The position numbers were made by a program, and so were the translations under genes. A stretch of DNA of 64,000 nucleotides from Echinarachnius parma (taxonomy: Eukaryota > Echinodermata > Echinoidea > Clypeasteroida > Echinarachniidae), in the NCBI GenBank assembly GCA_037951105.1, contig JBAMJV010012437.1, positions 1-64,000 of the forward strand, read 5' to 3'. The notes beneath the pieces are model-generated. The model did not search any database. It saw only the letters and a list, made by a program, of their open reading frames with translations, and was not told the DNA's origin. Positions 783-59,637 of this stretch are shown in pieces. Within the stretch, counting starts at the first letter, position 1. Each line of letters opens with the position of its first letter.

Positions 783-942
783 AGATTATAGTTATCATGG
801 GTTTAATGAGAAAACTCATAAATCATCATAATAATGATGATGATAATCTGAAAAATGTGACCGGTCAAAGCTTGCTTACTTGTGCATATATAATTGACTT
901 CAGAAATACAGTCAAACCCGTCTTTAACGACTGCTTTTATAG
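783..942. repeat. Interrupted copy of a dispersed repeat (left flank of foldback element)
   Basis: The sequence cagtcaaacccgtc...cttttatag at 911-942 continues logically at 9612 (tagggaccagcgaaaagag), so the foldback element appears to have inserted into an older repeat. A tandem set of atcataataatgatgatg lies at 826-846. Confidence 0.5.
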
Positions 943-2029
943 TAGTCTAGTAGGAAATAGGGGTTCCCATGCACCCCCCCTAAAACATTTTTTGATTTTG
1001 ATTTCTAGGACCCATCCTCTTAAACAATTTAGATGTTAACAGCGAAAAAAAAAGGTCACTTTGGGTCAAATGGGCATATTTTCAAAATGGCCGCCAAATA
1101 TCCATTAAAATATCATATTTTTTCATTAAAGTAGATTCTGGTCCATTTTCAATTGTTTTTGTGTACGTAAGCTGATACATTGATTAAGTTAAACTGTTAG
1201 CATCATCCCCGGAGATATTAAAGGTCAAGGTCATGTTTAAAGGTCAAAGGTCAAACGATTTTTGTTCGAAATAGGCAAATAATGAATAAAAATTGGTATA
1301 ATACTTAGTCATGTAAATTTTTATGCAAAATAAAGGGGTCATGTATCAATATAATTATTTTTCCTACAACATGGTCCTGTTATGCCGGAAAATTCATCTT
1401 GACCATTTAAAAGCGTTCAATAGGACTGTATTTTCACGCCAATTGAAACAATACCATGTCACATATTGAAAGAAAACGCACAAGCTTAATACAGACTAAT
1501 ACATAGTTTTAAACATAACATGTGTAACAGAAAATATCAAAATCAATTGAGGCCAATGGTCATGTCAAGGTCACAGATCAAGGTTAAAGGTCAAGGTCAC
1601 ATGTCAAGGTCACGTGACAAGGTCAGGGTCACGACATAATTATATTTGATCTCTCATGACAGCATGCTTAATGTAGATTCTAGTAATAATAATGATCTTT
1701 TACATGTACACATCAGCTCAAATGAAATTGATATTTAATCAAGAATCCAACAGATATAATCAAGTACTAGAGAGGCGGTTAATTGTATGTGCACAGCCTT
1801 TGAAGGTTTTGAGACCAAAGTTTCTAATGTTACCAACAACATGGTCAAGAAGAAAATTCTATACTTAGATTGCACAGTGGATAAAGCTTCTGTCCAACGA
1901 GTATGTCCTAACTTCAGGGGTAGTGACTACATATTTTGAGGGCAGTTCGCAGCAGGTTGTTTTGTGTACAGCTTGCTATCAAAGATGACACACATGATTT
2001 TAAGCTCATCCTCGGTACCAGGTTAAACC
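943..2029 (+). repeat. Left terminal arm of the foldback element
   Basis: Unique-sequence inverted arm ending where the 21-bp array begins (ggtaccaggttaaaccg). It contains clusters of AGGTCA/AAGGTCAAAGGTCA half-sites at 1218-1256 and 1560-1630. The last roughly 120 bp (1906-2029) is duplicated inside the satellite at 2557-2690. Confidence 0.8.
1556..1630 (+). promoter_or_regulatory. Cluster of AGGTCA nuclear-receptor-type half-sites inside repeat arm
   Basis: Multiple directly repeated AAGGTCA/AGGTCA motifs occur here and, inverted, at 7980-8050 and 8360-8400. Direct repeats with one-base spacing match the DR1 element class bound by RXR/HNF4/COUP-type receptors. No functional evidence is in the sequence. 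Confidence 0.3.
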
Positions 2030-4877
2030 GAACATTAAACATGTCTAACCGCACATTTAACAAGCCAAACCGCACATTGAACAAGTCGAACCGCACATTT
2101 CACAGGTCAAACCGCACATTTAACAAGTCAAACCGCACATTAAACAGGTCAAACCGCACATTTAACAAGTCAAACCGCACATTTTACAAGCCAAACCACA
2201 CATTAAACTGTTCGCTACATTCAACAAGTCAAACTCCACATTTAACAAGCCAAACCACACATTGAACAAGCCAAACCACACATTGAACAAGTCAAACCGC
2301 ACATTTAACAAGTCGAACCGCACATTTAACAGGTCAAACCGCACATTGAACAAGTCAAACCGCACATTAAACAGGTCAAACCGCACATTTAACAAGCCAA
2401 ACCGCACATTGAACAAGCCAAACCGCACATTTAGCAAGCCAAACCGCACATCTAACAAGTCAAACCACATATTTAACAAGTCAAACCGCACATTAAACAA
2501 GCCAAACCACACATTTAACAGGTCAAACCGCACATTTAGCCAGCCAAACCGCACATTCAAGTATGTCCTAACTTCAGGGGTAGTGACTACATATTTTGAG
2601 GGCAGTTCGCAGCAGGTTGTTTTGTACAGCTTGCTATCAAAGATGACACACATGATTTCAAGCTCATCCTCGGTACCAGGTTAAACCGCACATTAAACAT
2701 GTCTAACCGCACATTTAACAAGCCAAACCGCACATTGAACAAGTCGAACCGCACATTTCACAGGTCAAACCGCACATTTAACAAGTCAAACCGCACATTA
2801 AACAGGTCAAACCGCACATTTAACAAGCCAAACCGCACATTAAACTGTTCGCTACATTCAACAAGTCAAACTCCACATTTAACAAGCCAAACCACACATT
2901 GAACAAGCCAAACCACACATTGAACAAGTCAAACCGCACATTTAACAAGTCGAACCGCACATTTAACAGGTCAAACCGCACATTGAACAAGTCAAAACGC
3001 ACATTAAACAGGTCAAACCGCACATTTAACAAGCCAAACCACACATTGAACAAGCCAAACCGCACATTTAGCAAGCCAAACCGCACAACTAACAAGTCAA
3101 ACCGCATATTTAACAAGTCAAACCGCACATTAAACAAGCCGAACCACACATTTAACAGGTCAAACCGCACATTTAGCCAGCCAAACCGCACATTCAACAG
3201 GTCAAACCGCATATTTAACAAGCCGAACCGCACATTAAACAGGTCAAACCGCACATTCAACAAGTCAGACCGCACATTTAACAAGCCAAACCACACATTC
3301 AACAAGCCAAACCTCACATATAACAAGCCAAACCGCACATTAAACGGGTCAAACCGCACATTTAACAAGTCAAACTGCACATTGAACAAGCCAAACCGCA
3401 CATTGAACAAGTCAAACCGCACATTGAGCAAGCCAAACCGCACATCTAACAAGTCAAACCACATATTTAACAAGTCAAACCGCACATTAAACAAGCCGAA
3501 CCACACATTTAACAGGTCAAACCGCACATTTAGCCAGCCAAACCGCATATTCAACAGGTCAAACCGCATATTTAACAAGCCGAAACGCACATTAAACAGG
3601 TCAAACCGCACATTTAACAAGCCGAACCGCACATTTAACAAGTCGAACCGCACATTGAACAAGTCAAACATCACATTTAGCAAGTCAAATTGCACATTTA
3701 ACAAATCGAACCGCACATTGAACAAGTCAAACCGCACATTTAACAAGTCGAACCGCACATTTAACAGGTCAAACAGCACATTCAACAAGTCAAACCGCAC
3801 ATTGAACAGGTTAAACCGCACATTTAACAAGTCAAACCGCACATTTAACAAGCCAAACCGCACATTTAACAAGTCAATCCGCATATTTAACAAGCTGAAC
3901 CGCACATTTAACAAGTCAAACCACACATTGAACAAGTCAAACCGCACATTTAACAAGCCGAACCGCACATTTAACAAGTCAAACCGCACATTTAACAAGT
4001 TGAACCGCACATTTAGCAAGTCAAATTGCACATTTAACAAATCGAACCGCACATTAAACAAGTCAAACCGCACATTTAACAAGTCGAACCGCACATTTAA
4101 CAGGTCAAACCGCACATTTAACAAGTCAAACCGCACATTGAACAGGTCAAACCGCACATTTAACAAGTCAAACCGCACATTTAACAAGCCAAACCGCACA
4201 TTGAACAAGTCAAACCGCATATTTAACAAGCCGAACCGCACATTTAACAAGTCAAACCACACATTTAGCAAGCTAAACCGCACATTTAACAGGTCAAATC
4301 GCACATTTAACAAGTCGAACCGCACATTGAACAAGTCAAACCGCACATTTAACAAGTCGAACCGCATATTTAACAGGTCAAACCGCACATTCAACAAGTC
4401 AAACCGCACATTGAACAGGTGAAACTTCGCATTTAACAAGCCAAACCGCACATTGAACAAGTCTAACCGCATATTTAACAAGCCGAACCGCACATTTAAC
4501 AGGTCAAACCGCACATTTAGCAAGCCAAACCGCACATTTAACAGGTCAAATCGCACATTGAACAAGTCAAACCGCACATTTAACAAGTCGAACCGCATAT
4601 TTAACAGGTCAAACCACACATTCAACAAGTCAAATCGAACATTGAACAGGTCAAACCGCACATTTAACAAGTCAAACCGCACATTTATCAAGCCAAACCG
4701 CACATTGAACAAGTCAAACCGCATATTTAACAAGCCGAACCGCACATTTAACAGGTCAAACCGCACATTTAACAAGCCAAACCGCACATTGAACAAGTCA
4801 AACCACGCATTTAACAAGCCAAACCGGACATTAAACAGGTCAAACCGCACATTTAACAAGTCAAACCGCACATTGAA
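2030..4877 (+). repeat. 21-bp satellite, forward array (about 135 units)
   Basis: The unit is approximately AAACCGCACATTTAACAAGTC with substitutions at a few positions (AAGTC/AGGTC/AAGCC, TTTAAC/TTGAAC/TTAAAC). Because 21 is a multiple of 3 and common variants avoid stops, long reading frames appear on both strands (heptapeptides like NKSNRTF and LLNVRFD); these are not evidence of a protein. A block of about 650 bp including part of the left arm is tandemly duplicated (about 1906-2556 and 2557-3200). Confidence 0.9.
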
Positions 4878-4885
4878 CGCTGTTT

Positions 4886-7573
4886 AACTTGTTAAATGTG
4901 CGGTTTGACTTGTTGAATGTGCGGTTTGACTTGTTGAATGTGCGGTTTGACTTGTTAAATGTGCGGTTCGGCTTGTTAAATGTGCGGTTTGACTTGTTCA
5001 ATGTGTGGTTTGACTTGTTAAATGTGCGGTTCAGCTTGTTAAATATGCGGATTGACTTGTTAAATGTGCGGTTTGGCTTGTTAAATGTGCGGTTTGACTT
5101 GTTAAATGTGCGGTTTAACCTGTTCAATGTGCGGTTTGACTTGTTGAATGTGCTGTTTGACCTGTTAAATGTGCGGTTCGACTTGTTAAATGTGCGGTTT
5201 GACTTGTTCAATGTGCGGTTCGATTTGTTAAATGTGCAATTTGACTTGCTAAATGTGATGTTTGACTTGTTCAATGTGCGGTTCGACTTGTTAAATGTGC
5301 GGTTCGGCTTGTTAAATGTGCGGTTTGACTTGTTCAATGTGCGGTTTGGCTTGTTAAATGTGAGGTTTGACCTGTTAAATGTGTGGTTCGGCTTGTTAAA
5401 TGTGCGATTTAACTTGTTCAATGTTCGGTTTGGCTTGTTAAATATGCGGTTTGACTTGTTAAATGTGCGGTTTGACCTGTTCAATGTGCGGTTTGACTTG
5501 TTAAATGTGCGGTTTGACCTGTTAAATATGCGGTTCGACTTGTTAAATGTGCGGTTTGACTTGTTCAATGTGCGGTTCGACTTGTTCAATGTGCGGTTTG
5601 GCTTGTTAAATGTGCGGTTTGACTTGTTAAATGTGCGGTTTGACCTGTTCAATGTGCGGTTTGACTTGTTAAATGTGCGGTTTGACCTGTTAAATGTGCG
5701 GTTCAACTTGTTAAATGTGCGGTTTGACTTGTTCAATGTGCGGTTCGATTTGTTAAATGTGCAATTTGACTTGCTAAATGTGTGGTTTGACTTGTTCAAT
5801 GTGCGGTTCGACTTGTTAAATGTGCGGTTCGGCTTGTTAAATGTGCAGTTTGACTTGTTCAATGTGTGGTTTGACTTGTTAAATGTGCGGTTCGGCTTGT
5901 TAAATATGCGGATTGACTTGTTAAATGTGCGGTTTGGCTTGTTAAATGTGCGGTTTGACTTGTTAAATGTGCGGTTTAACCTGTTCAATGTGCGGTTTGA
6001 CTTGTTGAATGTGCGGTTTGACCTGTTAAATGTGCGGTTCGACTTGTAAAATGTGTGGTTTGACTTGTTCAATGTGCGGTTCGATTTGTTAAATGTGCAA
6101 TTTGACTTACTAAATGTGTGGTTTGACTTGTTCAATGTGCGGTTCGACTTGTTAAATGTGCGGTTCGGCTTGTTAAATGTGCGGTTTGACTTGTTCAATG
6201 TGCGGTTTGGCTTGTTAAATGTGAGGTTTGACCTGTTAAATGTGCGGTTCGGCTTGTTAAATGTGCGGTTTAACTTGTTCAATGTGCGGTTTGGCTTGTT
6301 AAATATGCGGTTTGACTTGTTAAATGTGCGGTTTGACCTGTTCAATGTGCAGTTTGACTTGTTAAATGTGCGGTTTGACCTGTTAAATGTGCGGTTCGAC
6401 TTGTTAAATGTGCGATTTGACATGTTAAATGTGCGGTTTAGCTTGCTAAATGTGTGGTTTGACTTGTTAAATGTGCGGTTCGGCTTGTTAAATATGCGGT
6501 TTGACTTGTTCAATGTGCGGTTTGGCTTGTTAAATGTGCGGTTTGACTTGTTAAATGTGCGGTTTGACCTGTTCAATGTGCGGTTTGACTTGTTAAATGT
6601 GCGGTTTGACCTGTTAAATGTGCGGTTCGACTTGTTAAATGTGCGGTTTGACTTGTTTAATGTGTGGTTTGACTTGTTAAATGTGCGGTTCGGCTTGTTA
6701 AATATGCGGATTGACTTGTTAAATGTGCGGTTTGGCTTGTTAAATGTGCGGTTTGACTTGTTAAATGTGCGGTTTAACCTGTTCAATGTGCGGTTTGACT
6801 TGTTGAATGTGCGGTTTGACCTGTTAAATGTGCGGTTCGACTTGTAAAATGTGTGGTTTGACTTGTTCAATGTGCGGTTCGATTTGTTAAATGTGCAATT
6901 TGACTTACTAAATGTGTGGTTTGACTTGTTCAATGTGCGGTTCGACTTGTTAAATGTGCGGTTCGGCTTGTTAAATGTGCGGTTTGACTTGTTCAATGTG
7001 CGGTTTGGCTTGTTAAATGTGAGGTTTGACCTGTTAAATGTGCGGTTCGGCTTGTTAAATGTGCGGTTTAACTTGTTCAATGTGCGGTTTGGCTTGTTAA
7101 ATATGCGGTTTGACTTGTTAAATGTGCGGTTTGACCTGTTCAATGTGCAGTTTGACTTGTTAAATGTGCGGTTTGACCTGTTAAATGTGCGGTTCGACTT
7201 GTTAAATGAGCGGTTTGACTTGTTCAATGTGCGGTTTGGCTTGTTCAATTTGCGGTTTGACTTGTTAAATGTGCGGTTTGACCTGTTAAATGTGCGGTTC
7301 GGCTTGTTAAATGTGCGGTTTAACTTGTTCAATGTGCGGTTTGGCTTGTTAAATATGCGGTTTGACTTGTTAAATGTGCGGTTTGACCTGTTCAATGTGC
7401 AGTTTGACTTGTTAAATGTGCGGTTTGACCTGTTAAATGTGCGGTTCGACTTGTTAAATGAGCGGTTTGACTTGTTCAATGTGCGGTTTGGCTTGTTAAA
7501 TGTGCGGTTTGACTTGTTAAATGTGCGGTTTGACCTGTTTAATGTTCGGTTTGGCTTGTTAAATGTGCGGTTT
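4886..7573 (-). repeat. 21-bp satellite, inverted array (about 128 units)
   Basis: The same unit in reverse complement (TTGTTAAATGTGCGGTTTGAC type). A higher-order period of 798 bp (38 units) is visible: the rare variant with CTTGTAAAATGTGTGG occurs at about 6045 and 6843, followed by matching variant order. The array ends at the right arm with GGTTTAACCTGGTACCGAGG. Confidence 0.9.
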
Positions 7574-9611
7574 AACCTGGTACCGAGGATGAGCCACCGA
7601 GGATGAGCTTGAAATTATGTGCGTCATCTTTGATAGCAAGCTGTACACACCACCACCTGCTGCGAACTGCCCTCAAAATATGCAGTCACTACCCCTGAAG
7701 TCAGGACATACTCGTTGGACAGAAGCTTTATCCATTGTGCAATCTAAGTATGGAATTTTCTTCTTGACCATGTTGTTGGTAACATTAGAAACGTTGGTCT
7801 CAAAACCTTCAAAGGCTGTGCACATACAATTAACCGCCTCTCTAGTACTTGATTTTATCTGTTGGATTCTTTATTAAATATCAATTTCATTTGAACTGAT
7901 GTGTACATGTAAAAGATCATTATATTATTACTAGAATCTACATTAAGCATGCTGTCATCAGATATCAAATATAATAATGTCGTGACCCTGACCTTGTCAC
8001 GTGACCTTGATATGTGACCTTGACCTTTAACCTTGCCATGTGACCTTGACATGACCATTTGCCTTTAATTGATTTTTTATATTTTCCGTTACACATGTTA
8101 TGTTTAAAACTATGTATTAGTCTGTATTAAGCTTGTGCGTTTTCTTTCAATATGTGACATGGTATTGTTTCAATTGTCGTGAAAATACAGTCCTATTGCA
8201 CGCTTTTAAATGGTCAAGATGAGTTTCCGGCATAACAGGACATTAATGTTGTAGGAAAAATCATTATATTGATACATGACCCCTTTATTTTGCATAAAAA
8301 TTAACATGACTATAAGTATTATACCAATTTTTATTCATTATTTGCCTATTTCAAACAAAAATCGTTTGACCTTTGACCTTTAAACATGACCTTGACATTT
8401 GATATATCCGGGGATGATGCTAACAGTTTAACTTAATCCATGTATCAGCTAAAGGCCCAGTCCCATACTGACGATATTCACGGCGACTCGCAACGATTTA
8501 CTAGAACGAATCGACTCGAATTAGCCACGATTTAACAACGAATTGGAAATAATTGTACGGCGATTCAAGACGAATATTCGTTCTTCGTCGTTGTTCGACG
8601 AGTCAGTTCGTCCTTCTTTTGTCTTTAACCATTGCGGTAGAAAAATCGTGGCAGAAAAAAAGTTGTGGTCCCATAGTGACGATTTTTACGGCGACTCGCA
8701 ACGAATTATCATTCGTGGAGAAAATCGCTTGAGTCATCGCGAGTCGTTGTAGTTCATTGCGAGTCATTGTAATTCGTTCTTCGAACCGTTGCGCATCGCC
8801 GAGAACGCCATGAATCGTGTTAGCACAACGAATGTTTTGAACTGGTTCAAAACTATCGCCATGTCGCAACGATTTCCTCACATTCTTTTTATGGAACAAT
8901 CGGGCAGTGCACAATATGAACAATCGGACTTGCTTGAGTCAGTTCCACGGGCGTAGATCTGTCATTGATACAATTCAACAGGGGGATGATCTATTCATTC
9001 ACCCCCCCCCCCCTCGTGATGAATAGGTATTACGTAAGTCTCTACGCCCATGGTCAGTTCAAAAACGGAAAGCGGCGATCTTCACAACGAAGCGATACGA
9101 GTCGCAACGAATTGCAACGATGTGGAACGACTTGACACGAATATGCAACGGTAAATACAATGATTTTTGGTGAAAATCGTCGTGGCGTGGCGATTGTTTT
9201 GAACAGTTGAAGACGGCGATTTTGGCTCCGCTTTCACGATTTTCTTCACGATGCGCAACGGTTTTGGAGGAAGAACCGATACGATGTAACACGATGCAAC
9301 ACGACCTAAGCGATTTTCTCGACGAATGTCAAATCGTTGCGATTCGCCGTGAAAATCGTCAGTATGGGACTGGGCCTTTACATACACAAAAATAATTGAA
9401 AATGGACCAGAATCTACTTTAATGAAAAAATATGATATTTTAATGGATATTTGGTGGCCATTTTGGAAATATGCCCATTTGACCCAAAGTGACCTTTTTT
9501 TTCGCTGTTAACATCTAAATTGTTTAAGAGGATATACTAGGGGTCCTAGAAATCATAATCAAAAAATGTTTTAGGGGGGGTCCATGGGAACCCCTATTTC
9601 CTACTAGACTA
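7574..9611 (-). repeat. Right terminal arm of the foldback element, interrupted by a MITE
   Basis: Reverse-complement copy of the left arm, about 1.1 kb when the 927-bp insertion at 8452-9378 is removed. A small local duplication (accgaggatgagc twice) lies at the array boundary. Divergence from the left arm is modest, including a few-base indel near 9530. Confidence 0.85.
8452..9378. mobile_element. MITE nested in the foldback right arm
   Basis: Perfect terminal inverted repeats starting AAGGCCCAGTCCCATACTG and continuing with GACGATTTTCACGGCGA-like sequence on both ends. TA occurs on each side (8450-8451 and 9379-9380). The uninterrupted left arm shows the empty site. The interior is full of degenerate CGATT/GCAACGA motifs and further copies of the terminus (about 8668). 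TA duplication suggests a Tc1/mariner-like mobiliser; that is inference. Confidence 0.85.
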
Positions 9612-9614
9612 TAG

Positions 9615-10336
9615 GGACCAGCGAAAAGAGATTGTTATAGACAAGTTGATGGTCATTGTAAATAAGCACTTGTGTAATCAATTGAATATTTGCTAAAAAA
9701 TTCAGATTTGTATATTATCTGTTATTTATTGCTCAGGCGCTAATTTTGCAGTTGCTATTCATGGATTTATATGTGCGTTGGGACGTAAATGGGGTGGTCG
9801 CTGGTTGCATTGCGCAGGTCACTAAAGATGATTTTTCAGGGGAGACCAGAAAGCAGTCATTATGGGCAGGTAGTCGCTACAGCAGGTTTGACTGTACCGA
9901 TAACGGATGCTCGACAAATATAACTTTTTTATATTCGTCTCCATTGGATCATGTATCGCTCATGTTTCGCTGTATAAGACAATGTTCATCACCTGACAAG
10001 AAACGCATGCGAATCGAGACGAACAGATTGAAAATGTTGCTCTCCATCAGGTGATCCGTTTATGTTATCTAGTGATATGTGACCAGGATTAAAGGACTTC
10101 AACCTGGGTCTCCTGCTTTGAATGATGATGCCCTTAACTTTTTAAACTGGTGAAAACATTATACAGTACTTAGCTGTTATTGTGTTATATACTTATCCCA
10201 GGTTGGAATGATGTATCAAAATTATATTTTAATCAAATAATTATAAAGGTAAAATTGGTTGGCCGGGCAAATTTAAGTAAATTGTGGTGACGTATAAACC
10301 AATCATTTAGGCATGATTTCACCTTGTCACACTTAC
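9615..10336. other. Intron between exons 20 and 21, right part
   Basis: It holds the right half of the interrupted dispersed repeat (to about 9700) and otherwise AT-rich sequence. No exon, RNA gene or further repeat was recognised. Confidence 0.4.
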
Positions 10337-10507
10337 CTCGACATACAGTGGTTTGTCCAGACCAATAGCCGTTTCCGAGGCATAGTCGTTGAGCACTACC
10401 ACCCAGTTCATACCCCCGGTCACACGAGAAGTGGACACGACTCCCTTCTCTCCGATCCGACGCAGTCATATAACCATGAGCAGGGGCGGTCAGCTCGCTA
10501 CATTTGA
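10337..10507 (-). CDS. Exon 20: sushi/CCP module 11
   Basis: Acceptor gatttctcag, donor GTAAGT, phase 1 to 1, 57 codons. KCSELTAPAHGYM, HFSCDRGYEL, RLCLGNGYW and VCRG are textbook CCP elements. It is the last module before the VWA exon; the intron between them carries the giant foldback element (943-9611). Confidence 0.85.
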
Positions 10508-11387
10508 CTGAGAAATCTAAATGAAAAGAAGATAAGAACAAAGCCCGAACAAAGTAATGATGAAAATGGAATTGACCTAGAAACTTGATTATGACGACTC
10601 TAATGATTCTCAGTGGTATTCTCAAACGGAACGTGCACTATAAAGTAGCCACGATTATTATCATTATTTTTTATTATTGCTTCAGGGGGCACAATGGGAT
10701 ATAACCTCCTCCTCTCCCCCAATACTCTGACAAAGGGGACAATATTTGAAAAAATAAAGAAAAACATAATTTGTGTGCTCCCCAATCAGTCCGACTACGC
10801 CACGCCACGCCACTGATAGTAACGATATATACATATGAAAAACAGAGTTATTATGTAATGGTGCTGATCTAGAAATCTAGAAACAAAGATCTGATGAAAT
10901 GGTGTTTCCACACTGTTTTCATAACTTTATAATTCACGATAACAATGGTGTTACAGTTTTTGGCAATGATAATAACAAATTACGCCAATTTGTTTTAATC
11001 ATGAAGCGAGTCCAAACTGGACAAATGGTGTGGGGGGGATTCTCAAAGGGACAGGATGCCCCCTCTAGCCCCCCTCCTCCTATCTCTCGCCAGCCACCAT
11101 CTCCTCAGCTGCACTCTGTGAAGTAGGGTAGCTATGGGAGGCGGGAAACATGCCCTTGATTCATTTTACAAAAACAAATTACAACTAGATGGATCTTCGA
11201 CTGCGCACAGTCAAAAATGATGCCTCCAACATTGCGCGATTTATATATCAAGCCCAAATTAACACTTTTCATGTCTGTATGCTTTTTCCAACCATGGAGA
11301 GGTGTTCTGAAGGGTGCTTTCACTATTGCACTAACATAATTTTTAGCATTAAATTTAGTTGTTTCTGTTAGCCTATATATAGAAGTG
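10508..11387. other. Intron 19, upstream part: low-information sequence and a dispersed repeat
   Basis: At 11186-11260 lies a copy of the ctagatggatcttcgactg family, also found at 16916 and 29777, which begins with an imperfect palindrome (gactgcgcacagtc). A purine/pyrimidine-skewed patch lies at 11030-11110. No exon was recognised. Confidence 0.5.
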
Positions 11388-12233: not shown

Positions 12234-12440
12234 GATTGTGTGTGTGTGTGTGTGTGTGTGTGCTCTGGTATACGTGCAGAATTGTGATTGTGTTTATATC
12301 TGTATGTGCGTCTGCCTATGTGTGTGTATGTGTGCATGCATGTTTGTATGCGTGCGTGTATGTATGTATGTGTGCGTGGGCCGTGGGTGTATGTGTTTGT
12401 GTGTGCATGCGGGAATGCAAGCATGTACATGGTAAGTATG
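12234..12440 (+). repeat. TG-rich microsatellite in intron
   Basis: A pure (TG)n run at 12237-12262 followed by degenerate TGTATG/TGCGTG repeats. Open frames over it on both strands (poly Cys-Val and Thr-His) are artefacts of the repeat. Confidence 0.85.
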
Positions 12441-12499
12441 CGTGTGTACATGACTGTTTGGATTATATGTGTTTAGATAGGAGGGGGTAAACGACGCAC

Positions 12500-12781
12500 C
12501 TTCACACGCTGTCCCATTCCCGATGAAGTTGTCCCGACACACGCAGTCGAAGGACCCTTCTGTGTTGTGACACTGGGCATCTGCGTGACACCTCAGCTCG
12601 TTTGGGGGTAACGGACTGCCCCCCTGGCACGATAGCTGTTCTGTATGGAGGTGGAGTAGGGGTTGCAGATCGGGAGTATTGTCCACTTCGTGATGAATGG
12701 ATGTTGACCACGAAGAAACAGAGACATCTTCGTCATAGTCGTCGCCCGACAGTAAGAATGGTGCCACACATTCGTTGATAT
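12500..12781 (-). CDS. Exon 18: calcium-binding EGF-like module with long N-terminal insert
   Basis: Acceptor tgtgttcag, donor GTGCGT, phase 1 to 1, 94 codons. DINEC opens a cbEGF, and CHADAQCHNTEGSFDCVC with NGTAC gives the rest, including the Asn hydroxylation-type motif CxNTxGSFxC. Between DINEC and the next Cys is an acidic, Ser- and His-rich insert of about 45 residues (for example SGDDYDEDVSVSSW), so there are seven cysteines, not six. NGT is a possible N-glycosylation site. Confidence 0.82.
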
Positions 12782-13886
12782 CTGAACACAGTAAATGAAG
12801 AACATTAGAACAGGAGTCATTATCAAATGTACGATTTACTTTTCCTCTGGGTAAAGGTTTGGGTTTGGTTTACACAGTGGTGAAACTATTATTCCACTAC
12901 GCCAATGCAGAGCAATGTCTTTAATTGATAGATAGATATATGGAGAAAGATAGGCAGATAGATATATAGACATAATATATATAGAAATATACTAAATAGA
13001 TAGATTGGTAGGTACATGTAGATAGATAGACAGATCTTAGACAAAGCTTTATGTTTATCTAAATGTTAAGTAATGTATGTGTACAATGAAAACAAAATGT
13101 CAATCCAAAGCTTCCCTGTTGTCTCTGTTAAAACTTATGAAAAAAGTTGTGTTCTGGTACGATTTATTTACATACAAATATCGTTTTGATGACGATCTTA
13201 CCATTGAGTTGTGTTCTTGTAAATTGAAAATTTGCTTGGCCATGAAAATAAAACCCCTGCCAATGTGTTTTGTGTCGCTCAGCGCAAAATATTAATCGCG
13301 CAAAATTACGTTTCCATAATGTAGCAACGCAGTGGATATTAAAGTGATCAATTAACTTTGTGAATATTCAACCAAAATCACTTGGGAATTTCACATTTCT
13401 CTTGAAATGTTTTTTGAAATGTTTGTTTGAAATGTTTTTTGAAATGTTTTTTGAAATGTTTTTTGAAATGTTTTTTGAAATGTTTGTTTGAAATGTTTTT
13501 TTTTGTATTTGTCAAATATTTCCCCAATTATTGTTCAAAGCATATATAAATGCTTTTGACCATAGTCAAGAGTATCCAAATTCTAAAGATTAAATGCACC
13601 ATTTTATCAAAATTTGGAGATTTCAGATTTCATCCCCGATCGTTCCTACAAAGTATCCGAATTGTGACATTATGAACAATCAAAGTATCCTTATACAGAT
13701 ACTTTTGACAACAAGCAAAAAGAATCCGCAAATACTTGTTTCAATGCAATTCTAGCTATCTCCATAATAAAGGAAATTATGGCATAAGTGAAAAAAAAAA
13801 GTACAAGAGAATTGAGAAAGCTAGCTCCTATTGATTTTGGGTGAACTTGACAAAGTTATAATGGATCACTTTAATTGTCATCTTAC
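12782..13886. repeat. Intron with GATA-type microsatellite and a 13-bp minisatellite
   Basis: Degenerate GATA repeats at 12928-13035. At 13393-13505 about eight copies of a 13-bp unit (TGAAATGTTTTTT, with a TTTGTT variant). Otherwise AT-rich intron with no exon recognised. Confidence 0.7.
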
Positions 13887-32770: not shown

Positions 32771-34498
32771 TAGTACTAGAAAAAGATAAGTAAGTACAAA
32801 ATAATAATAGTATTAACTTCTGCTAGTTCTGGCCAATTAACGAGTTAACATCTATGATCTATAATATGTTACTAAAATAGCTTGAGTTTGACATATTTTA
32901 ATATTATATTAATTATTATGACTTACAGTTACACAGAAAAGGATGGACACAGCACAGGACAGGTCCATGTCAGAGGCTACATCTATTTTCAGCAAGCTGG
33001 TGATGGTATTATTAACTATGATTGAAGTCTGTGTAATGCCGAAGCGAAGGCGAAGCGAAGTCTTATAGCTGCATAATATGCATGCATTATTACGTTGTTT
33101 GTTTACGTTAATATTTTGGCGTACGTGAAATTACCATAATTATGACCTAATTAATTACCATAAATTAGACTCAAGATCAGACTCGTATTGGTTGTTTATT
33201 GATCTTAATAATGTATCCCCAAGAAATGTATCACTATTGGCTTACAAAAATAATAACCCTCAATTATGTTTGATTTTTTTACTAAATATTTAGAAGACGG
33301 TAAATCTAGGTACTTTATAGACCGTGTGTTATCGATATTTGCAAACACAAGTATTCAATTCATATTCTAAATTAAGATCGAACTATAGTAGCCTACGTTA
33401 TGATAGTAATTCATTGATTTGACGTTCACTACTAAATCATTGTCGGCGGGGGAAGAGCTAGGGGGGGGGGGGGGGGCGGCTGGTGGCGGTCACTTGACAA
33501 ATGAACGAGGGTCAATTTGATAACATTATTAATGATACAATTTAAAAATATACCACAATCTACTACTTTAGAACTATACTACTTCTCCTTCTACTACTAG
33601 TAGGCTACTCTATTATAGTACTAATGGAAAGAAAAAATCTAACTTTTCAGTTATTTTTGTGGCTAGACTCTAGCATCACTTTGTTTAATTGCCTAATTGT
33701 TTTTTTATCTATCTTGTACGGTATATACGTTGGTTTATTTTTAGTTGGGATCGTCAACCCAAGCTGACTATAGACTCAAAACCGTCTTCGAATTAATTGG
33801 TTCATTAATCGTTTCCATTAATTCTAATCAATTATGAATTCATCGTATACATACTTCTGCTCTAACACTGCACTAACACCGAACTTGAAATCACCATTTC
33901 TTAAATCCCTAGGGGCTAGTGTTAGTGAATGGGAAATTTGTACGCAAATCCTTAACACCAGCCATGAAGCTCAGTTCAAGCAGACGACATTTCCATAAAA
34001 TTACAACACCAGCCACCGGAAGTTGCAAAATTCCAGAGGTCAACTCCTAACACTGCAAGAGTTCAAGTTCGGTGTTTAGGCCGGTGTTAGTGTTTATTAA
34101 ACACTAACACCAGCGTTAAACACCGAACTTGAAATCACTCAATGAGATCGATCGATATTCATTCACGCCTATACACGGTACTGGGCCCAGAATTGAATAG
34201 CTTACAGTGTTATAAGCCGTCTCGCTCGCGGTAAGCCCTAGCTCTGATCTCCAGGTCATTCATGCGTATACAGGCTACCGGGCCGGTTTATTATTTAGGA
34301 TATTAGCTAGTCTCGATCTAGTCATTCCCATTATTTCAATGCAAGCTTGTCGGATATCAACTGCGCATCGTGCCATAAAGTCTCGGATTTTTACTATTTA
34401 GTACAACGTTTTGATTTTCATGAGTAGTTTGTTTCACAAATTAGTTCTCAATTCGTTGGTAATAGCTTATCACTATCAATGTAACATCGTATCTCAAA

Positions 34499-35114
34499 AT
34501 GTCTCGTCATGGAACGAAGTCTCTGTTTAGCGTTGAAGATGCTCGAGAAGCGATCCTTGACTCGGACTCTGAAAATGAATTTGATAAAATGGACTTATCA
34601 AGCGAAGAAGAGTATTCGTCGGACGTAGAAAATGAACAATATGAAACCACGACGTTCGATGATTTCTTTGAATCGGAGAATACAGCAGAGTCCACGAATG
34701 GAAATACTCCTGTAAACCCCGCCAGCGCTCGTAACGATACCCTCGATCCAGACCGAACCGACCGGGGAGTTAGGGGGGACCAACATGCAGCCGAGCCCAT
34801 TGCGACCGCTTCCGTGCCGGGGGATAGCGGGAACAAGCGACGTCGAGTCGCAGCTGCAGAGCCAGTGGGGCGGACCTGGGAGGATAACCCATCTGACGGA
34901 CCTCAACACTTCGAGTTTACAGGCACCCCTGGTATCAGTCCTGATACAGGCCTGTCACCAACTTCAACTCCGCTGGACTGTTATCTCAAATTTGTGTCAA
35001 AGGAAACATTTGAGGAAGTTGCAGTTGAGACCAACAAATACGCGTCTTCGGTCCTGAGAGAATCCCCTCCATCGCCATCATCACCAGCCAAGAACTGGAC
35101 CAGAACTAGTGCAG
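34499..35114 (+). CDS. piggyBac transposase, exon 1 (acidic N-terminal region)
   Basis: The ATG at 34499 opens 205 codons ending at the donor AG/GTATGT; without splicing the frame stops at 35146. The N-terminus is rich in Asp/Glu/Ser (DSDSENEFDKMDLSSEEE), typical of piggyBac proteins, with a basic patch NKRRRV that could be a nuclear signal. The frame joins exon 2 exactly through a split Gly codon. Confidence 0.8.
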
Positions 35115-35453
35115 GTATGTACAGTCTAAGACTTGTATTTTCTTAATCCAGAAATAATATCAAAATTACCTTTACTGAACATACAATTGATATGTATTAT
35201 TTCTGTTTTTCTTCAGCATATGAATAAAAAAAGGGTTTCTATTATCTTATTTATTTTCAATTGTAATGTAAGAAGATTGTAAGACTAAGAAGATGTTCTG
35301 TAACTACATGTATGTGGCATAGTGTTGACAAAAGACCTTTTCAAATGTTAGTTTGATACTTATAGTGAAGTTTATGACTCGTGTCATTTTTACAACATGT
35401 ATGAAGAGTATGAAGTATTGAAGAATTGTTTTTTCTTTCTTTTTATTTTGCAG

Positions 35454-36775
35454 GAGAGCTCATCATCTTCTGGGCGTTATGCATGCTCATGGGAGTCGTC
35501 GGGAAACCTGCAATCCATCTCTACTGGTCTACCAGGAACATCCTTGCCACCCCTTTCTTCGGCCAGACTATGACGAGGGACCGCTTCACTCTTCTTCTCC
35601 GCTTCCTCCACTTCAATGATAACAACCAGGCCAAGCAGCGCAGTGACCCAAGCTACGACCCGCTCTTCAAACTCCGGCCATTTTATGACGCAGTAACGAC
35701 AGCGTTCCATAAAGTCTTCACACCATTTCGCTCCATCGCGATCGACGAGGCCCTCATCAAGTTCTATGGGCGCCTGAGCTTCAAGACATATAACCCCCGC
35801 AAGCCAGCAAAGTATGGCATGAAAGCGTATAAGATATGTGATCCGACTGGATATACGTGGAAATTTAGACTTTACACCGGTAAAGCTAAGGACACCATTG
35901 TTGGACTTGTGATGTCAATGATGACAGGACTTTTGGACAAAGGATACCGCCTTTTCATGGACAATTGGTACACAAGTCCTACACTTTTTGCAGAACTTTT
36001 CAAGCGGAGGACCCATGCTTGTGGAACTGTTAGAGCAAATAGACGTGAAATGCCTAAAAATCTGAAACCGGCTCAAAAGCTAACCCGTGGGATGTCCATC
36101 TTCAGACGATCTAAGGAACTGCTCGCCATGCTGTGGTTTGATAAACGTGATGTAACAATGCTGAGCACTCTCCATACCAACACCTTCAGTGATACACAGA
36201 AAAAACATCCTGTGACAGGGGAAAACATTCAAAAACCAGACGTTGTTCTCGATTATAACAAATACATGGGTGGAGTAGACTTGTCAGACTTTCTAACTAA
36301 CAAATACGCAGATATGAGAAAATCTCTCAAGTGGTATAAAAAACTCATATTTCATCTGAACGATTTGGCGGTGACGAATGCGTACATTGTGTACTGCCAT
36401 GTATCAGACAGGAATGTAGACCATTTAAACTTTGTCATAGACCTCATCGAGCAGATGATTGCCTTTGGCAACCAGCTTGCGCAGGACCGACCGCGACCAG
36501 TCCGATCTGGGAGGAGATGCAATAAGGAAAACGTACTAAGGCTGGAATTTTCAGAATCTCAACATTGGCCCATGCATGTCCCTCCTACAGCAAATAAGCC
36601 AGACGCAACTCGACCATGTGTTGCGTGCAAGCCTAAGCCGCTAGGAAAACGGAAGCAAAAAGGAGATCAAACATCACGCCCTGAATCAAGATTTATGTGC
36701 AGAAAGTGTGAAGTCCCTCTCCACATCCTTTGCTTTGAACGATACCACACCAAAGCAAATTATCGCTCAGGATAG
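35454..36775 (+). CDS. piggyBac transposase, exon 2 (DDD catalytic domain and Cys-rich C-terminus)
   Basis: The acceptor ttttattttgcag follows a strong pyrimidine tract. Joined to exon 1 the product is about 645 residues, normal for the family. Catalytic aspartates are visible in AIDEAL (about 303), FMDNWYTS (about 375) and GGVDLSD (about 481). The tail has a RING-like cysteine pattern (CVACK, CRKCEVPLHILCF, YH) that binds the element ends in piggyBac. No stop or frameshift was seen, so the enzyme may be functional. The intron of 339 bp lies outside conserved blocks. Confidence 0.88.
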
Positions 36776-38095: not shown

Positions 38096-39370
38096 AATGA
38101 TGTCGGTAACTGGTTCATCACTGATGATGATAATGATGATGATGAAGGTGATACTGATAATGATGATGACGATTGATGATGATAATGATATCGATGGCGA
38201 TAATGCTGATGATAGTAATGAAAATGATGCTGATGAAGATGATGACGAGTATGATAATGATGATGACGATAATGATGAGGATTATGATACTGATGATGAC
38301 GATGATGATGATAATGATAAAATGATGAAAATGATGATGATCGTGTCGATGATGATGATGATGATAAGAATGAAATTCACGATGATGATACTGATGAAGA
38401 TGATGACGAGTGTGATAATGATGACGAGTATGATAATGATGACGATTATGATACTGATGATGACGATAATGATGCTGATACTGATGCTGATAATGATGAT
38501 GACGATGATGATAATGATAAAATGATGAAAATGATGATGATCGTGTCGATGATGATGATGATAAGAATGAAATTCACGATGATGATACTGATGAAGATGA
38601 TGACGAGTGTGATAATGATGACGAGTATGATAATGATGACGATTATGATACTGATGACGATAATGATGCTGATACTGATGATAATGATGCTGATAATGAT
38701 GACGATGATGATGATAATGATAAAATGATGAAAATGATGATGATCGTGTCGATGATGCTGATGAAGATGATGATGATAAGAATGAAATTCACGATGATGA
38801 TACTGATGAAGATGATGACGAGTGTGATAATGATGACGAGTATGATAATGACGATTATGATACTGATGATGACGATAATGATGCTGATACTGATGATAAT
38901 GATGCTGATAATGATGATGACGATGATGATGATGATAATGATAAAATGATGAAAATGATGATGATCGTGTCGATGATGCTGATGAAGATGATGATGATAA
39001 GAATGAAATTCACGATGATGATACTGATGAAGATGATGACGAGTGTGATAATGATGACGAGTATGATAATGACGATTATGATACTGATGATGACGATAAT
39101 GATGCTGATAATGATGATGACGATGGTGATGATGATAATGATAAAATGATGAAAATGATGATGATCGTGTCGATGATGCTGATGAAGATGATAAGAATGA
39201 AATTCACGATGATGATACTGATGATAATGATGATCGTGTCGATGATGCTGATGAATGAAATTAACGATGATTATACTGATGAAGATGATGACGATTATGA
39301 TAATGATGACGATGATGATAATGATATCGATGATGATGATGGTAATGATGATAATGATGATGAACTAAAA
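38096..39370 (+). repeat. GAT/GATAAT array with about 200-bp higher-order period
   Basis: Dominated by GATGAT/GATAAT trinucleotide-based words. The block beginning aaaatgatgaaaatgatgatg recurs at 38318, 38519, 38722, 38943 and 39143, each time followed by gatcgtgtcgatgatg and aagaatgaaattcacgatg. Poly-Met/Asp open frames over it are artefacts. Confidence 0.9.

Positions 39371-40280: not shown

Positions 40281-40355
<75 letters not shown>
40281..40355 (+). repeat. (ATT)n microsatellite
   Basis: About 24 uninterrupted ATT units. Confidence 0.95.
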
Positions 40356-40494
40356 GCTATACACCACTGATTTCATAAATATTTTGTATGATTGTACTTA
40401 TATTTTTATTTATATAAAAAGTTGATTGATTAGTTATATGATTCAAAACAACCTGAAACAAATGTAAATTAAACTTCCGCAAATTTGTAAAATT

Positions 40495-41055
40495 ATGAGT
40501 GACGATGATGCTGATGAAGATGATGGTAATGATGATGATGATGATGATGATAATGATGATAAAAATGAAATTGACGATGATGATACTGATTAAGATGATG
40601 ACGATTATGATAATGATGATGACGATTGTAATAATGATAATGATGATGATGATGATAATGATGATAACGATGATGATGATGATAATGATATCGATGATGA
40701 TGATGGTAATGATGATAATGTTATCGATGGTGATAATGATAATGACCATGATCTTAGTGATGGTGATGATGATGATGGTAATGATGATAATGATGATAAG
40801 AATTAAATTGACGATGATGATGCTGATGAAGATGATGACGATTATGATAATGATGATGACGATTATAATAATGATAATGATGATGATGATGATAATGATG
40901 ATAACGATGATGATGATGATAATGATATCGATGATGATGATGGTATAATGATGATAATGTTATCGCTGATGATAATGACCATGATCTTAGTGATGGTGAT
41001 GATGATGATGATAAGAATGAAATTGACTATGAGGATGCTGATGAAGATGATGAAA
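40495..41055 (+). repeat. GAT/GATAAT array, second
   Basis: Same composition as 38096-39370, with a roughly 275-bp repeat: gatgaagatgatgacgattatg ... gatcttagtgatggtg occurs twice. Confidence 0.88.
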
Positions 41056-41747
41056 TTTATTCCAATCGTTCTAATATGCCTTGACAAAAACTTGCCATGA
41101 TTATAAACATATTTTGTGTGTTTATATACGCTTATGACACGTTATCAACGCTTTAGTTTGGGAATCTTTTGTGACGCAATCATTGCATTATTTCCGTTGA
41201 GCTACAAATGAAATTGCATGTATCCTGAGGACTATGAAAAATATTCCACCCACAACTAATGAACAACTAACTGTTTAATCCTTTCTTTTCAAGAAAAAAT
41301 TCAAAGCACCGCATAATATGCGGTACTTTGATTAGCGCTATATTTGAGTTTTGTTTGATTTGTTTGAGTATTGATTTCTGCGGAACACTTTCATTTCCTA
41401 TAAACAATACGCGCGTAATCTGAAAGTGTGCCATGCGTCCACGGTCTATTGAAATACAACAACTCTCACTTCTTTTATCTTTTATAATGGAGACCGTCAG
41501 GCCATCCATATATTTAATCACAAAGGAAAGCATCACTAGGGTTTACGCGAACAATTAGGCTACACTATAACTTGCACTTCCTGTGCACAATACATGCGCA
41601 CTCAAAGTGGGCCACGCCTTATCGGTCTATTGAAAAATGACATCTCGATCCTCTCTTATCTTTGACAATAGAGACCGCGCGTCACACCATCCATTCAAAA
41701 TGTATCACAAAGGAGCGCATCAGTAGGCACCAGTAAAGATTAGGTTA
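41056..41747 (+). repeat. 692-bp direct repeat, copy 2
   Basis: Matches 39430-40121 with only scattered substitutions and small indels. Confidence 0.85.
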
Positions 41748-41951
41748 AACAAATATTTGTAAAATTATAAATAAATACATGAATAATATATATACAGATA
41801 TATATATATATATTCCTTCAAAACTAATTAATAACTATTTAATCCTTTCTTGAATTGAATAAAGACTTTACCAATGAATTATAGAGTCCAAATTTATTTT
41901 ATTGACTTTTTTATATAATATATATTTCATAGATTTTTTCATAGATTATGT

Positions 41952-42110
<159 letters not shown>

Positions 42111-53827: not shown

Positions 53828-56125
53828 CTAAGGCTGATATCTGGCCGGTTTTCGAATTGTGCGACCTGATCTGGTGGTTCTATAATCAGAGTGTGCATTT
53901 GTGTGCAGAGTGTTGTGATTGCGTTCTGCGTTGGGTGTGTTTGCGCTGTGACTGTCCCTGCTAGTGGGTGTGTCGTGTTGGTGTGGTGCGGGGTCGTCAG
54001 CAAAGTGTATACGTTTGGCAATTTCTTGCGCATGATTGAGCGTACTACTGACTGGAATCTCCCTCAAGTGGGAGCGATTGCGACGAAGAATAGCGCCGTT
54101 GGGGGTGGCGACCTCATACGACCGTGGTTCGGCACACACCCTTGAGATCTTCGCGGGTACCCACGTGTGCTCCTGCGGGTGTAGGACACGGACCTGTTGT
54201 CCTACGTGAAGTGGTGGGAGCTCTGTCCCAGCATGTTTGTCATGTGTTTCCTTCATTCTAGTTTGCCTCTGCAGGAGATGCTCCGTGTCGGATGCATTGT
54301 CTGCAAGATGGTGGCTAGGAAGACTGGTCCTGATGGGTCTTCCTAATAGAAGTTCAGCTGGAGACTTCATGTGCGAGTCAATTGGTGTCGCTCGGAGATG
54401 GAGCATTGCTATCTGTGCGTCTTGACCAGTCATGCTGCACTTCTTGAGCAGTGACTTGACAGTCCGTACCATGCGCTCTGCCAGTCCATTGGACCTAGGA
54501 TAATGTGGTGATGAGGTCACGTGGGTGATTGACCATTTCTTGCACATTTCCTGGAATGGTCGTCCGGAAAACTGGGGGCCGTTGTCTGATACGATTTCTG
54601 CAGGTGGACCAAACAGGCTAAAGACTCCACTCATCACTCCTGCTACTGCTGCACTTGAAGTGTCTTTCAGTTTGTAAAGTACTGGGTACTTCGAATGGTA
54701 GTCTGTGATGAGGAGATAGTCCTGTCTGTTCAAGGTGAACAGGTCTGTTCCCAGCTTGGTCCAGGGAGCTGTTGGAACATCATGTGGTTGGAGAGGTTCC
54801 TTTTGCTGTCTTGTTTGCAGTTCCTGGCACGCAGGGCAGTCCTTTGTGATACGCTCGATATCATTGTTGATTCCTGGCCAGAAAACTGTTTCACGGGCTA
54901 GTCTGCGCGTTCGCTCAATGCCCATGTGTCCTATGTGGAGCTGTCCTAGGATGTCTTTTTGTAGTGTTATGGGAATTACAACCTGCTTCCCTTTAAAGAG
55001 AACTCCGTGTGAGACGCCAAGCTCGTCTCTGAATGTCCAAAATGTGCGCAATGCCGTGGGCACCTCCTTGATGGATTCTGGCCAACCATTTGTCACCAGT
55101 TGCCATAGGGCACGTAGGACGGGGTCAGCAGAAGTTTCCTTCTGAAGTTCCTCTCTCTTGCTATGGCCAAAGAACATGAGATCAATGTCTAGTGAGCCTT
55201 CAATCTCTGTGCCGATGAAATCTACCGCGACATCTATGGAAATGTCCTGGCTGTCGGCAGGATTTGGCATCCTGCTCAGTGTGTCAGATAGCACCATGTG
55301 CTTTCCAGGTTTGTACCTGATGTCACACTTATATCCTTGGATCTTGATGAGTAACCTCTGAAGGCGAGGTGGTGCACTCTTGAGTGGCTTCTTCCAAATC
55401 ATCTCAAGAGGCTTGTGGTCAGTTTCCACGACAAATTCCTTTCCAAAAAGGTATGTGTGGAAGCGATTGATGCCGAATATGAGCGCTAACGTCTCTCTTT
55501 CAATGTTTGAATAGTTAGACTCGGCTGGGGAAAGGCTTTTCGATGCAAACGCTACCGGTTTGCCGCCCTGTAGTAGGCATGCTCCTACTCCCTTCATGGA
55601 TGCATCCACTTCGAGGGTTGTGTCCTTCTGTGGATCGTAGTATTGGAGACGCGCTTGCTCCGTGATAGCATCCTTGAGTATGCTGAAGGCATGTTCGTGG
55701 TCAGCATCCCAGAGGAATGGAACATCCTTCTTGAGTAGTTCCCGCAGCGGTGCTGCCTTCTCAGAGAAGTTGGGAATGTATCCAGCAAGGAATGTGAAGA
55801 GTCCAAGGCATCGCTGGACGTCCTCCTTGTCTTGAGGCGTTGGCATTGCCTTGATGGCTTCCACTTTTCCTGGATCCGGGTGGATTCCTGTCCTGGTATA
55901 GAGCGATCCGAAGAATGTGATGCTCTCCTTCTTGATGTCGCATTTCGTGCTGTTGAAGACGAGGCCCTCTCGCGCTGCTCTATCCATCAACTGACGCAGA
56001 TTTGCGTCATGTTCTTCTTCAGTCCGACCAACAACAGCTATGTCATCTGCGATGCAGACACATCCAGGCAGACCACTGATGATCCTGTCCATGTGCTGCT
56101 GGAAGACATCTTGACTGACGCGGGA
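53828..56125 (-). CDS. pol, second part: RT core, RNase H, integrase (frameshifted from gag)
   Basis: In the other frame from about 56125: SQDVFQQHM, the RT active-site IADD, RNase H with LEVDASMKG and ETDHKPLEM, integrase with an HHCC zinc finger (HIGH, CPAC), and DD35E residues in GTDLF, IVSDNGPQF and NGLAE. It ends with a basic tail and a stop at 53828. The open frame formally extends up to 56263, but that first part is out of frame with RT homology. Confidence 0.87.
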   Translation of the reverse strand, partial: SRVSQDVFQQHMDRIISGLPGCVCIADDIAVVGRTEEEHDANLRQLMDRAAREGLVFNSTKCDIKKESITFFGSLYTRTGIHPDPGKVEAIKAMPTPQDKEDVQRCLGLFTFLAGYIPNFSEKAAPLRELLKKDVPFLWDADHEHAFSILKDAITEQARLQYYDPQKDTTLEVDASMKGVGACLLQGGKPVAFASKSLSPAESNYSNIERETLALIFGINRFHTYLFGKEFVVETDHKPLEMIWKKPLKSAPPRLQRLLIKIQGYKCDIRYKPGKHMVLSDTLSRMPNPADSQDISIDVAVDFIGTEIEGSLDIDLMFFGHSKREELQKETSADPVLRALWQLVTNGWPESIKEVPTALRTFWTFRDELGVSHGVLFKGKQVVIPITLQKDILGQLHIGHMGIERTRRLARETVFWPGINNDIERITKDCPACQELQTRQQKEPLQPHDVPTAPWTKLGTDLFTLNRQDYLLITDYHSKYPVLYKLKDTSSAAVAGVMSGVFSLFGPPAEIVSDNGPQFSGRPFQEMCKKWSITHVTSSPHYPRSNGLAERMVRTVKSLLKKCSMTGQDAQIAMLHLRATPIDSHMKSPAELLLGRPIRTSLPSHHLADNASDTEHLLQRQTRMKETHDKHAGTELPPLHVGQQVRVLHPQEHTWVPAKISRVCAEPRSYEVATPNGAILRRNRSHLREIPVSSTLNHAQEIAKRIHFADDPAPHQHDTPTSRDSHSANTPNAERNHNTLHTNAHSDYRTTRSGRTIRKPARYQP

Positions 56126-57899: not shown

Positions 57900-59637
57900 T
57901 GTACGTGGTACACTTCGCTGGCGATATAAAGAATGATGTGAGTGTGCTTACCGTATAGTACAATAACTGTACGTAATTCAATATTGTTCCAAAATACAAT
58001 GTAAGTTTTAGTGTACTATGTAACAAAACAAATAATTTCAAGTACCACACAACCAGGTTTAGGCTAGCTTATTTCAGTATGTGCTTAGCACCTACTAATA
58101 GTATACTACGTCTATGGGCAGACAACTACACACTGTGACTGTGTTGTGTATAACGAAAAGAAAAAAAATAAGCCTATGCTAATAATATAAAAGTGAAATT
58201 CCGAGCATCCTAAATCAAGCAAATTCTGTAATTCACTATTATCAACAATATCACCGTCAAATACTAAATCATTTGACTTTGTAAGATTCACACGTAATAA
58301 CTGATTATTGTTATCTAATAATATATTCCATTAATATTACATTACCATAGTAACCAGCATTGCAGCAACGTCCGCAACTGTACCGTAGCTAGACGATATA
58401 CCAACGGGTTGGGTCTGGATTATTCTATAAAAGAGTAAGACTTCCTAAACATTAATTAATGTACCAACTCAGATTTGAATCAAGAATGCACAAAATTCTC
58501 CCTACATAATTATGACAGCATTAATAAAAGTAATATATTGTGTCACTGTCGTGTATATGACACAGTAAAACAACAGAGTTCAGAAAGATGGTATATGACA
58601 CAGTAAAACAACTTGTATTGTTAAACTTAGAGTCTATCATTCAACAATGACTAAAAATGTTAATGTTTACTCACGTCACTCAGATAATTCAACTTCTAAC
58701 TTCTAATTCTAAGTCCAAGTCCAGTCTTCAAAAAGACTAAATATGAGTGTGAGCTTGAGTTGATAATTATAGACTCTGGTAGTCTATTCTAGATTGTCAT
58801 TGGCATTGCTGATCAATGCTAGTTTAAGTTTAGATTCAATCCGTCGTAGATAGCGTGTCCAATGTCTGGTGCTTGGCCTTGGCAGCGCTAAATGGTGCCG
58901 AAGTTCTCGCCACGTCGCTATCTTGCGTAGATCTGCCCGCTATGCACGGCCTACACGCGCTGGTCGAGTCTAGTCCACCGCCGGTGATGCCGTTGCTCCG
59001 GGGGCCTGTTACACGTATGGGGGCCGGTTCCACGTACGAATTTCCACGGTCACGCGCCGCCACTGCACTATCCTGCGTTGAGTCGCGGTCGCTCTGGCCC
59101 GAGATGCTAGCGGTCCACCTCCGGTGCCGTTGATCCCCGCGTGTGGTGACGTCGCTTCGGGGCTTGTTGCACGGATCCCAAAGGCCGGTCCCACTTATCT
59201 GCCGCTGTCGGCTCGAACTCGAAGCTGGCGATGAAAAGTTCAGTCACTTGTTCCCGACGAAAAGGAATCTAAGTCGGACATTCTGCCTCATAATTACGTA
59301 GTCCGATAAGAAGCTGCGTTCTCCGTGATAGCTTTGCTGACTGCTGGATTCTGTAGAGTCGATCAGCTATAAACAGTCCAATAACAGTTCGCCGTCATGT
59401 GAATTGTGATTATCCACTGCGTACATGCGCCATGTAGTTTGGTAGCCAGCTAGTAGCTAGGGGGAATCGGCCTAGCCCTAGCCTAAGTTCATGCATGGCG
59501 CGCCGCTGGCGTTGTTGTTCAAATCAATCTGGCGAAAAATAAAACTCAAAGTCAAATCCTTCTCCGAATCGGTGGTTGGCCTCAATTTCGATTGTTCCAT
59601 GTCTTCACCGCGGTTTAATGTCTTCATTACCGCTGTT
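57900..59637 (-). other. Long 5' leader of the retrotransposon
   Basis: About 1.7 kb between PBS and gag. 58880-59220 is GC-rich and contains a diverged tandem pair of about 150 bp (ccaccgccggtgatgccg against ccacctccggtgccgttg; gggggccggttccac against aaggccggtcccac). The rest is AT-rich. No ORF with recognisable function. Confidence 0.6.

Follow-up and report, generated by a model that had tools for sequence, protein, structure and literature searches.

Knowledge of foldback transposons dates back to 1980 (cited in PMC4079207), and in several described families long inverted arms contain tandem repeats. In Tetris, from Drosophila virilis, tandem repeats of ~220-bp units lie behind a unique outer flanking domain that measures as much as 866 bp, and the element also has inner and middle domains and target-site duplications of 8-9 bp (PMC4079207). 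Galileo, a P-superfamily element of Drosophila mojavensis, has long inverted arms, variable tandem repeats, chimeric copies and arms extended by recruited internal sequence; its authors attribute this to recombination, or to one arm having been copied over the other along with neighbouring internal sequence (PMC3573991). Tm1, a Mutator/foldback family of Meloidogyne root-knot nematodes, combines composite arms, in which a motif of ~14 bp is repeated, with ends common to elements of very different interior (PMC3169594). FB of Drosophila melanogaster and TU of sea urchins are also foldbacks with tandem repeats in their arms, like the element described here. In FB and TU, the repeats lie nearer the arm ends, not behind a unique arm of 0.8-1.1 kb, and the target-site duplications are longer.

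We analysed a window of 64,000 nt (the whole stretch of DNA presented above) from the echinoid Echinarachnius parma. A sequence-only reading had proposed that positions 943-9611 form a giant foldback element with opposed arrays of a 21-bp satellite, and this was borne out: the 8,669-bp element is palindromic, carries ~258 units of the 21-bp repeat AAACCGCACATTTAACAAGTC (Tandem Repeats Finder), and has inverted arms that can pair along 2,025 nt (90% complementary) across a 33-nt gap. At up to 2 mismatches, 195 units of 21 bp were found in the window and none in 100 dinucleotide shuffles. The element and its borders have the following parts.

940-942, no strand: left target-site duplication, TAG (flank comparison)
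943-971, + strand: left tip, TAGTCTAGTAGGAAATAGGGGTTCCCATG (genome tip search)
943-2024, + strand: left outer arm in the long-arm form, with CTCGGTACCAGG just before the array
2025-2557, + strand: first block of 21-bp units, 25.6 units (Tandem Repeats Finder)
2558-2682, + strand: inner arm end, second copy within the left array (duplication of ~658 bp)
2683-4878, + strand: main left array of 21-bp units, 104.8 units (Tandem Repeats Finder)
3600-3992, + strand: 393-bp stretch, identical in inverted orientation to 4937-5329
4863-4885, no strand: turning point AAACCGCACATTGAACGCTGTTT, differing from the commonest form at 3/23 positions (homologous in other copies)
4882-7573, - strand: right array of 21-bp units in the opposite direction, 42.7 copies of a 63-mer or ~128 units (Tandem Repeats Finder)
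4937-5329, - strand: partner of the 393-bp inverted identity
7574-9611, - strand: right outer arm, into which another element is nested
8450-9380, no strand: unrelated DNA element lying within the right arm, with inverted ends of 50 nt, TAAAGGCCCAGTCCCATACTGACG...
9583-9611, - strand: right tip, identical to the left tip
9612-9614, no strand: right target-site duplication, TAG

The reversal that had been placed at about 4880 is confirmed, and its position can be refined to 4863-4885. Arms of about 1.1 kb had also been proposed, which holds for the left arm but not for the right, where a nested 0.93-kb element at ~8450-9380 lies within the arm. The second arm end inside the left array (~2560-2682) recurs with a tandem period of 658 bp that includes ~25 units, so arm end and units were duplicated together. 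Reading frames of at least 80 aa in the complete copies listed were mostly satellite; the longest non-satellite frame, of 141 aa (window 9085-9507), runs across the nested element.

In common with Tetris, this element has long inverted arms with a unique outer domain and tandem repeats behind it, apparently without conserved reading frames; in both, no autonomous partner has come to light, a pair of copies differs in repeat number (allelic in Tetris) and the ends recur in another element, which in Tetris is the smaller DAIBAM (PMC4079207). It differs in its unit length (21 bp versus ~220 bp), in its duplications (3 bp versus 8-9 bp) and in its arrays, which meet directly; Tetris has inner and middle domains, and its repeats also occur in longer satellite-like arrays (PMC4079207). 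The features of Galileo and Tm1 given above are likewise points of resemblance, but some Galileo copies have transposase sequence and its repeats are few and ~210 bp long (PMC3573991), and Tm1 has 9-bp duplications and includes elements encoding a putative transposase (PMC3169594). The view that the unique outer arms match no described family is not supported: such a domain followed by tandem repeats is present in Tetris (PMC4079207) and Tm1 also has composite arms with its short motif (PMC3169594). What we describe is a new family in a known architectural class, distinguished by the 21-bp unit, by arrays that abut directly at a marked turn and by the 3-bp duplication. No paper on this foldback family was found in the literature, which could not be searched by organism or by sequence.

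To find further copies we searched the genome (1.2 Gb). The arm gave 50 matches (40 scored among 147 first-look candidates), which excludes single-copy arms. With up to 3 mismatches allowed, there were 36 occurrences of the 29-bp tip, spread over 26 contigs and divided evenly between the two directions (18 each), and none of the reversed control; on ten contigs two tips faced each other. At least two of the 36 places (on C8389 and C10679) belong to a second type of tip, considered below. Twenty stretches were fetched by place and, with the window included, provided eleven copies with both ends. Because L014 (C1272) and L016 (C3372) have common flanks (96% identity over 906 bp on the left; 100% over 221 bp on the right, diverging thereafter), they were treated as one, so that ten of the complete copies were independent. 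All ten have homologous arms and the 29-bp tip (at most 2 mismatches); they differ in the length of their arrays and range from 3,272 to 8,669 bp, the window copy being the largest.

Target duplications had been anticipated, and an exact duplication of 3 bp was present at nine of the ten independent loci. Lengths of 1, 2 and 4-9 bp matched at none of the ten, and left and right flanks taken from different copies, as a control, agreed in 8/90 pairings. The exception was L020, which is flanked by ATG and TTG. The family shows three structural marks of the foldback class: long terminal inverted repeats, tandem direct repeats within the inverted arms (opposed arrays in 9/10 copies), and insertion at multiple sites with target-site duplication (9/10, 3 bp). 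Membership of Tetris (compared by its published description of 8-9 bp duplications and a ~220-bp unit), of Mutator (Tm1, 9 bp) or of the P superfamily, to which Galileo belongs and whose duplication is 7 bp, fails because the duplication length differs. Duplications of 3 bp are given for Zator, and none or 1-4 bp for the Harbinger group (PMC10045372); the 3-bp duplication fits this Zator or Harbinger-like range, but is common to unrelated groups and thus insufficient to assign membership.

Words of two 21-bp units occurred at 325 places in the genome at up to 2 mismatches. The 100 places listed lay on 14 contigs, 13 of which had matches to the family arm (the exception being C7435); as far as seen among these 100 of 325 places, the satellite is confined to the foldback family. 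We also considered whether the unit derives from an arm segment or arm-borne binding site. Its best match there had 6 mismatches, and 60 single-base shuffles gave a range of 5-8; a unit no closer to the arm than to shuffled arms leaves this idea unsupported.

Satellite arrays are capable of inversion and expansion, and the structure could be read as a non-mobile array that was inverted in place between chance flanking repeats. Such a history does not account for exact borders at the tip with 3-bp duplications at 9/10 loci, nor for arms on 13 of the 14 contigs with listed dimers, and we regard it as highly improbable.

Units in the + direction were followed by units in the - direction in nine of the ten independent complete copies; in L009 all units point the same way and the turn is missing. 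The turn is an asymmetric 23-bp sequence, AAACTGCAGATTGAACGCGGTTT, identical in L013, L014 and L015 (twice in the last) and found on the other strand in L018 and L020, because contig direction is arbitrary. The turn of L016, whose flanks are those of L014, is AAACTGCAGATTGAACGCGGTTT lengthened by 2 bases; the partial copies L011 (3/23 differences) and L022 (truncated where the contig ends) contain this turn as well. Counting the window, with its 3/23 differences, a homologous turn was thus present in six of the ten independent copies (window, L013, L014, L015, L018 and L020); those of L012, L017 and L019 were altered. L015 (C4913, element 795-4623) has two turning points (+ - + -), which suggests duplication of the turn itself.

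The turn allowed six copies to be oriented and their arrays to be assigned to sides. We compared array blocks of 105 nt, which overlap (step 21) and hence are not independent. For 11 of the 12 arrays, blocks matching the corresponding side of other copies outnumbered those matching the opposite one, with near ties for L015_L (38 to 35 blocks, with a slightly lower mean, 0.826 to 0.830) and L020_R (20 to 16). The sole reversal was the left array of the window, where 8 blocks matched their own side and 76 the other. Because opposed arrays and an asymmetric 23-bp turn are homologous between insertion sites in most copies, these comparisons establish, at the level of sequence, that the palindrome has in most copies been inherited as part of the element.

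The same evidence bears on whether the inversion at ~4880 could be artificial, a fold introduced during assembly or through fold-back reads. Noisy long-read assemblies can yield such folds, and the many small indels that separate L016 from L014 suggest noisy reads. It is, however, very unlikely that the same asymmetric joint was made in this way at separate insertion sites, and the homologous 23-bp turn does occur at other sites, with their own flanks and mostly with target-site duplications. The side lineages in 11/12 arrays also speak against an artefact, as do the arms of the window copy, which are only 94-96% identical and one of which carries a nested element. We give this explanation almost no weight.

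In the window copy, the two halves match exactly in inverted orientation over 393 bp (3600-3992 with 4937-5329). The longest match of this kind was 39-167 bp within the seven other copies compared; between different copies it did not exceed 122 bp, with a median of 54. This inverted identity, taken with the side reversal of the left array, points to right-type units having been copied into the left array of the window. Between the two window arrays no register stood out (0.897 versus 0.892 for the next). Exchange across mirror arrays is not general: the mirror array was never a better match than other copies in L013 (0/104 and 0/174 blocks), and seldom in L012, L014, L018 and L020.

The right array of L014 and L016 contains a non-satellite insert of ~465 bp (L014 element 1972-4247; L016 element 1828-2298). 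Insert plus units, 906 bp in all, occurs three times in L014 and once in L016. This difference may be allelic, may reflect a segmental duplicate or may be an error in noisy contigs; given these alternatives, and right flanks that part after 221 bp, we have not counted it as proof of array growth.

The arms behave differently from the arrays. As side markers they gave no signal, the same side being the better match in 8/15 pairs. They occur in two forms: a long form, in which the array follows CTCGGTACCAGG, and a short form, in which it follows TTTTACATGTACACAT at a shared CACAT. The short joint is present on both arms of six of the eleven complete copies (L012, L013, L015, L016, L018 and L020; some with single-base changes), and the long joint on both arms of the window copy and of the partial copy L011. 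A known joint was found on one arm only in L009, L014 and L017, and on neither in L019. The deletion at the same base on both arms is most simply explained by the copying of one arm to the other. Within copies the arms are 94.6-98.7% identical (94-96% in the window), yet the partner arm of the same copy was the best match for both arms in only 2/11 copies (window and L019).

These arm data speak for a rival view, in which the palindrome is not inherited but arises afresh with every copy through hairpin-type repair during excision or replication: arms are alike within copies, the joint is identical on both arms in six of eleven, and arms show no side lineage, all of which fits half-to-half copying. 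A palindrome made anew would not be expected to retain a homologous turning point, as 6/10 copies do, or side lineages, as 11/12 arrays do. We therefore judge re-formation improbable, and favour its inheritance, with arms overwritten from time to time.

A wider tip pattern matched 195 places in the genome, and 82 of the 100 listed were of the second type, mostly TAGTCTAGTCGGAATGGGGGGTTCCCATGC. These 82 lay on 79 contigs and were single on 76. Over the first 326 bp of the second type, the other 39 places scored (424 candidates) were 93-95% identical to L060. The second type and the foldback arm have in common a 34-bp tip (91% for L060) and an inner stretch of 22 bp. One element, L044 (C7500), has both: it is 1,266 bp long, with a left end of the second type (76 bp, 88%), a right end of the foldback type (188 bp, 84%) and unrelated sequence between; its flanking triplets do not match. 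From this single element, mainly, we infer an ancestor with two different ends, of which the foldback would be two copies of one. On C14071, second-type ends face each other 4.7 kb apart, and this may be a candidate for the opposite, 'left plus left' product.

Two further relatives, L026 and L027, have the foldback tip and an arm of ~1.3 kb (82% identical to each other), contain no 21-bp units, and have a further 0.65 kb in common at 92%. At the inner arm end they contain sequence (L026 3593-4882; L027 3814-7939) that we take to be a decayed LINE, a label drawn from its reading frames, with no match in Pfam; this stretch occupies the site at which the array starts in long-arm copies. Such relatives raise the question of whether the foldback was derived, through deletion or rearrangement, from a large autonomous transposon of which full copies survive. 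The shared tip, the arm and the additional 0.65 kb of these unit-free relatives fit that idea, but no convincing second tip was present within the ~7 kb fetched beyond the first, and four of their frames lacked a Pfam match. We consider such a derivation less likely than not; the idea is compatible with the explanation that we prefer, for which it would serve as an origin story.

The sequence-only reading had asked how an element without coding capacity moves. Movement is likely to occur in trans, by a transposase recognising the shared tip. Six translated frames from L044, L026, L027 and L051 had no Pfam match at E values up to 1, the L044 frame had no match among solved structures, and no autonomous copy was found among the copies and relatives examined.

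The foldback of the window sits inside another repeat, with ends TACAGTCAAACC...GGTTTGACTGTA (window 907-942 and 9612-9896), and the left flank of L012 contains a similar repeat end, likewise cut beside TATAG. Part of the right side of the surrounding repeat is common in the genome. No empty site spanning the joint was present among the 40 scored of 838 candidates; the left 148 bp of the query matched two other contigs besides that of the window, and the right ~90-110 bp is a common repeat in the genome. On the - strand, VWA, Sushi and EGF exons (399-776, 10236-10637, 12297-12869 and 60851-61183) surround the foldback, which is possibly intronic to a gene of complement-like or adhesion type. 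Elsewhere in the window, 34466-36772 is presumably a piggyBac-type transposase: its frame at 35414-36772 matches DDE_Tnp_1_7 (E 1.4e-73), and an acidic frame upstream has no Pfam match. An LTR-type retrotransposon polyprotein (reverse transcriptase, RNase H and integrase) is encoded in two overlapping frames at 53831-57947 (- strand), and long low-complexity blocks at 38122-39363 and 40282-42108 consist of TGATGA, ATT and ATAG arrays.

We consider it highly probable that these copies belong to a low-copy, non-autonomous family of foldback DNA transposons, mobilised by a transposase supplied in trans, with an inherited palindrome, changing arrays and a founder that arose by inverted duplication of an end. 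In the mechanism we propose, a transposase made elsewhere would bind the tip and transfer the palindrome in its entirety through a cut-and-paste reaction. The arrays would travel as passengers, growing and shrinking by unequal exchange or slippage, and the halves of an element would sometimes overwrite each other through inverted exchange or repair. The founder would trace back to an ordinary transposon with two different ends, one of which underwent inverted duplication. A more specific version, which we find plausible if not quite probable, is that the foldback is a product of the kind 'right end plus right end': a 21-bp repeat would have been caught at the joint during the inverted duplication of that end, after which the palindrome was inherited with side-specific array lineages while its arms, and sometimes its arrays, were overwritten from half to half.

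In its architecture the family adds one more case to those described. How foldback palindromes form, and whether they are inherited or remade, can seldom be tested directly; here, an asymmetric central mark common to separate insertion sites distinguishes inheritance from re-formation, and allows array blocks to be assigned to sides. A short satellite that is confined, where listed, to one transposon family is also a possible seed for a larger satellite. If the end-duplication reading is true, it would provide a stepwise origin of a foldback element that can be seen within one genome.
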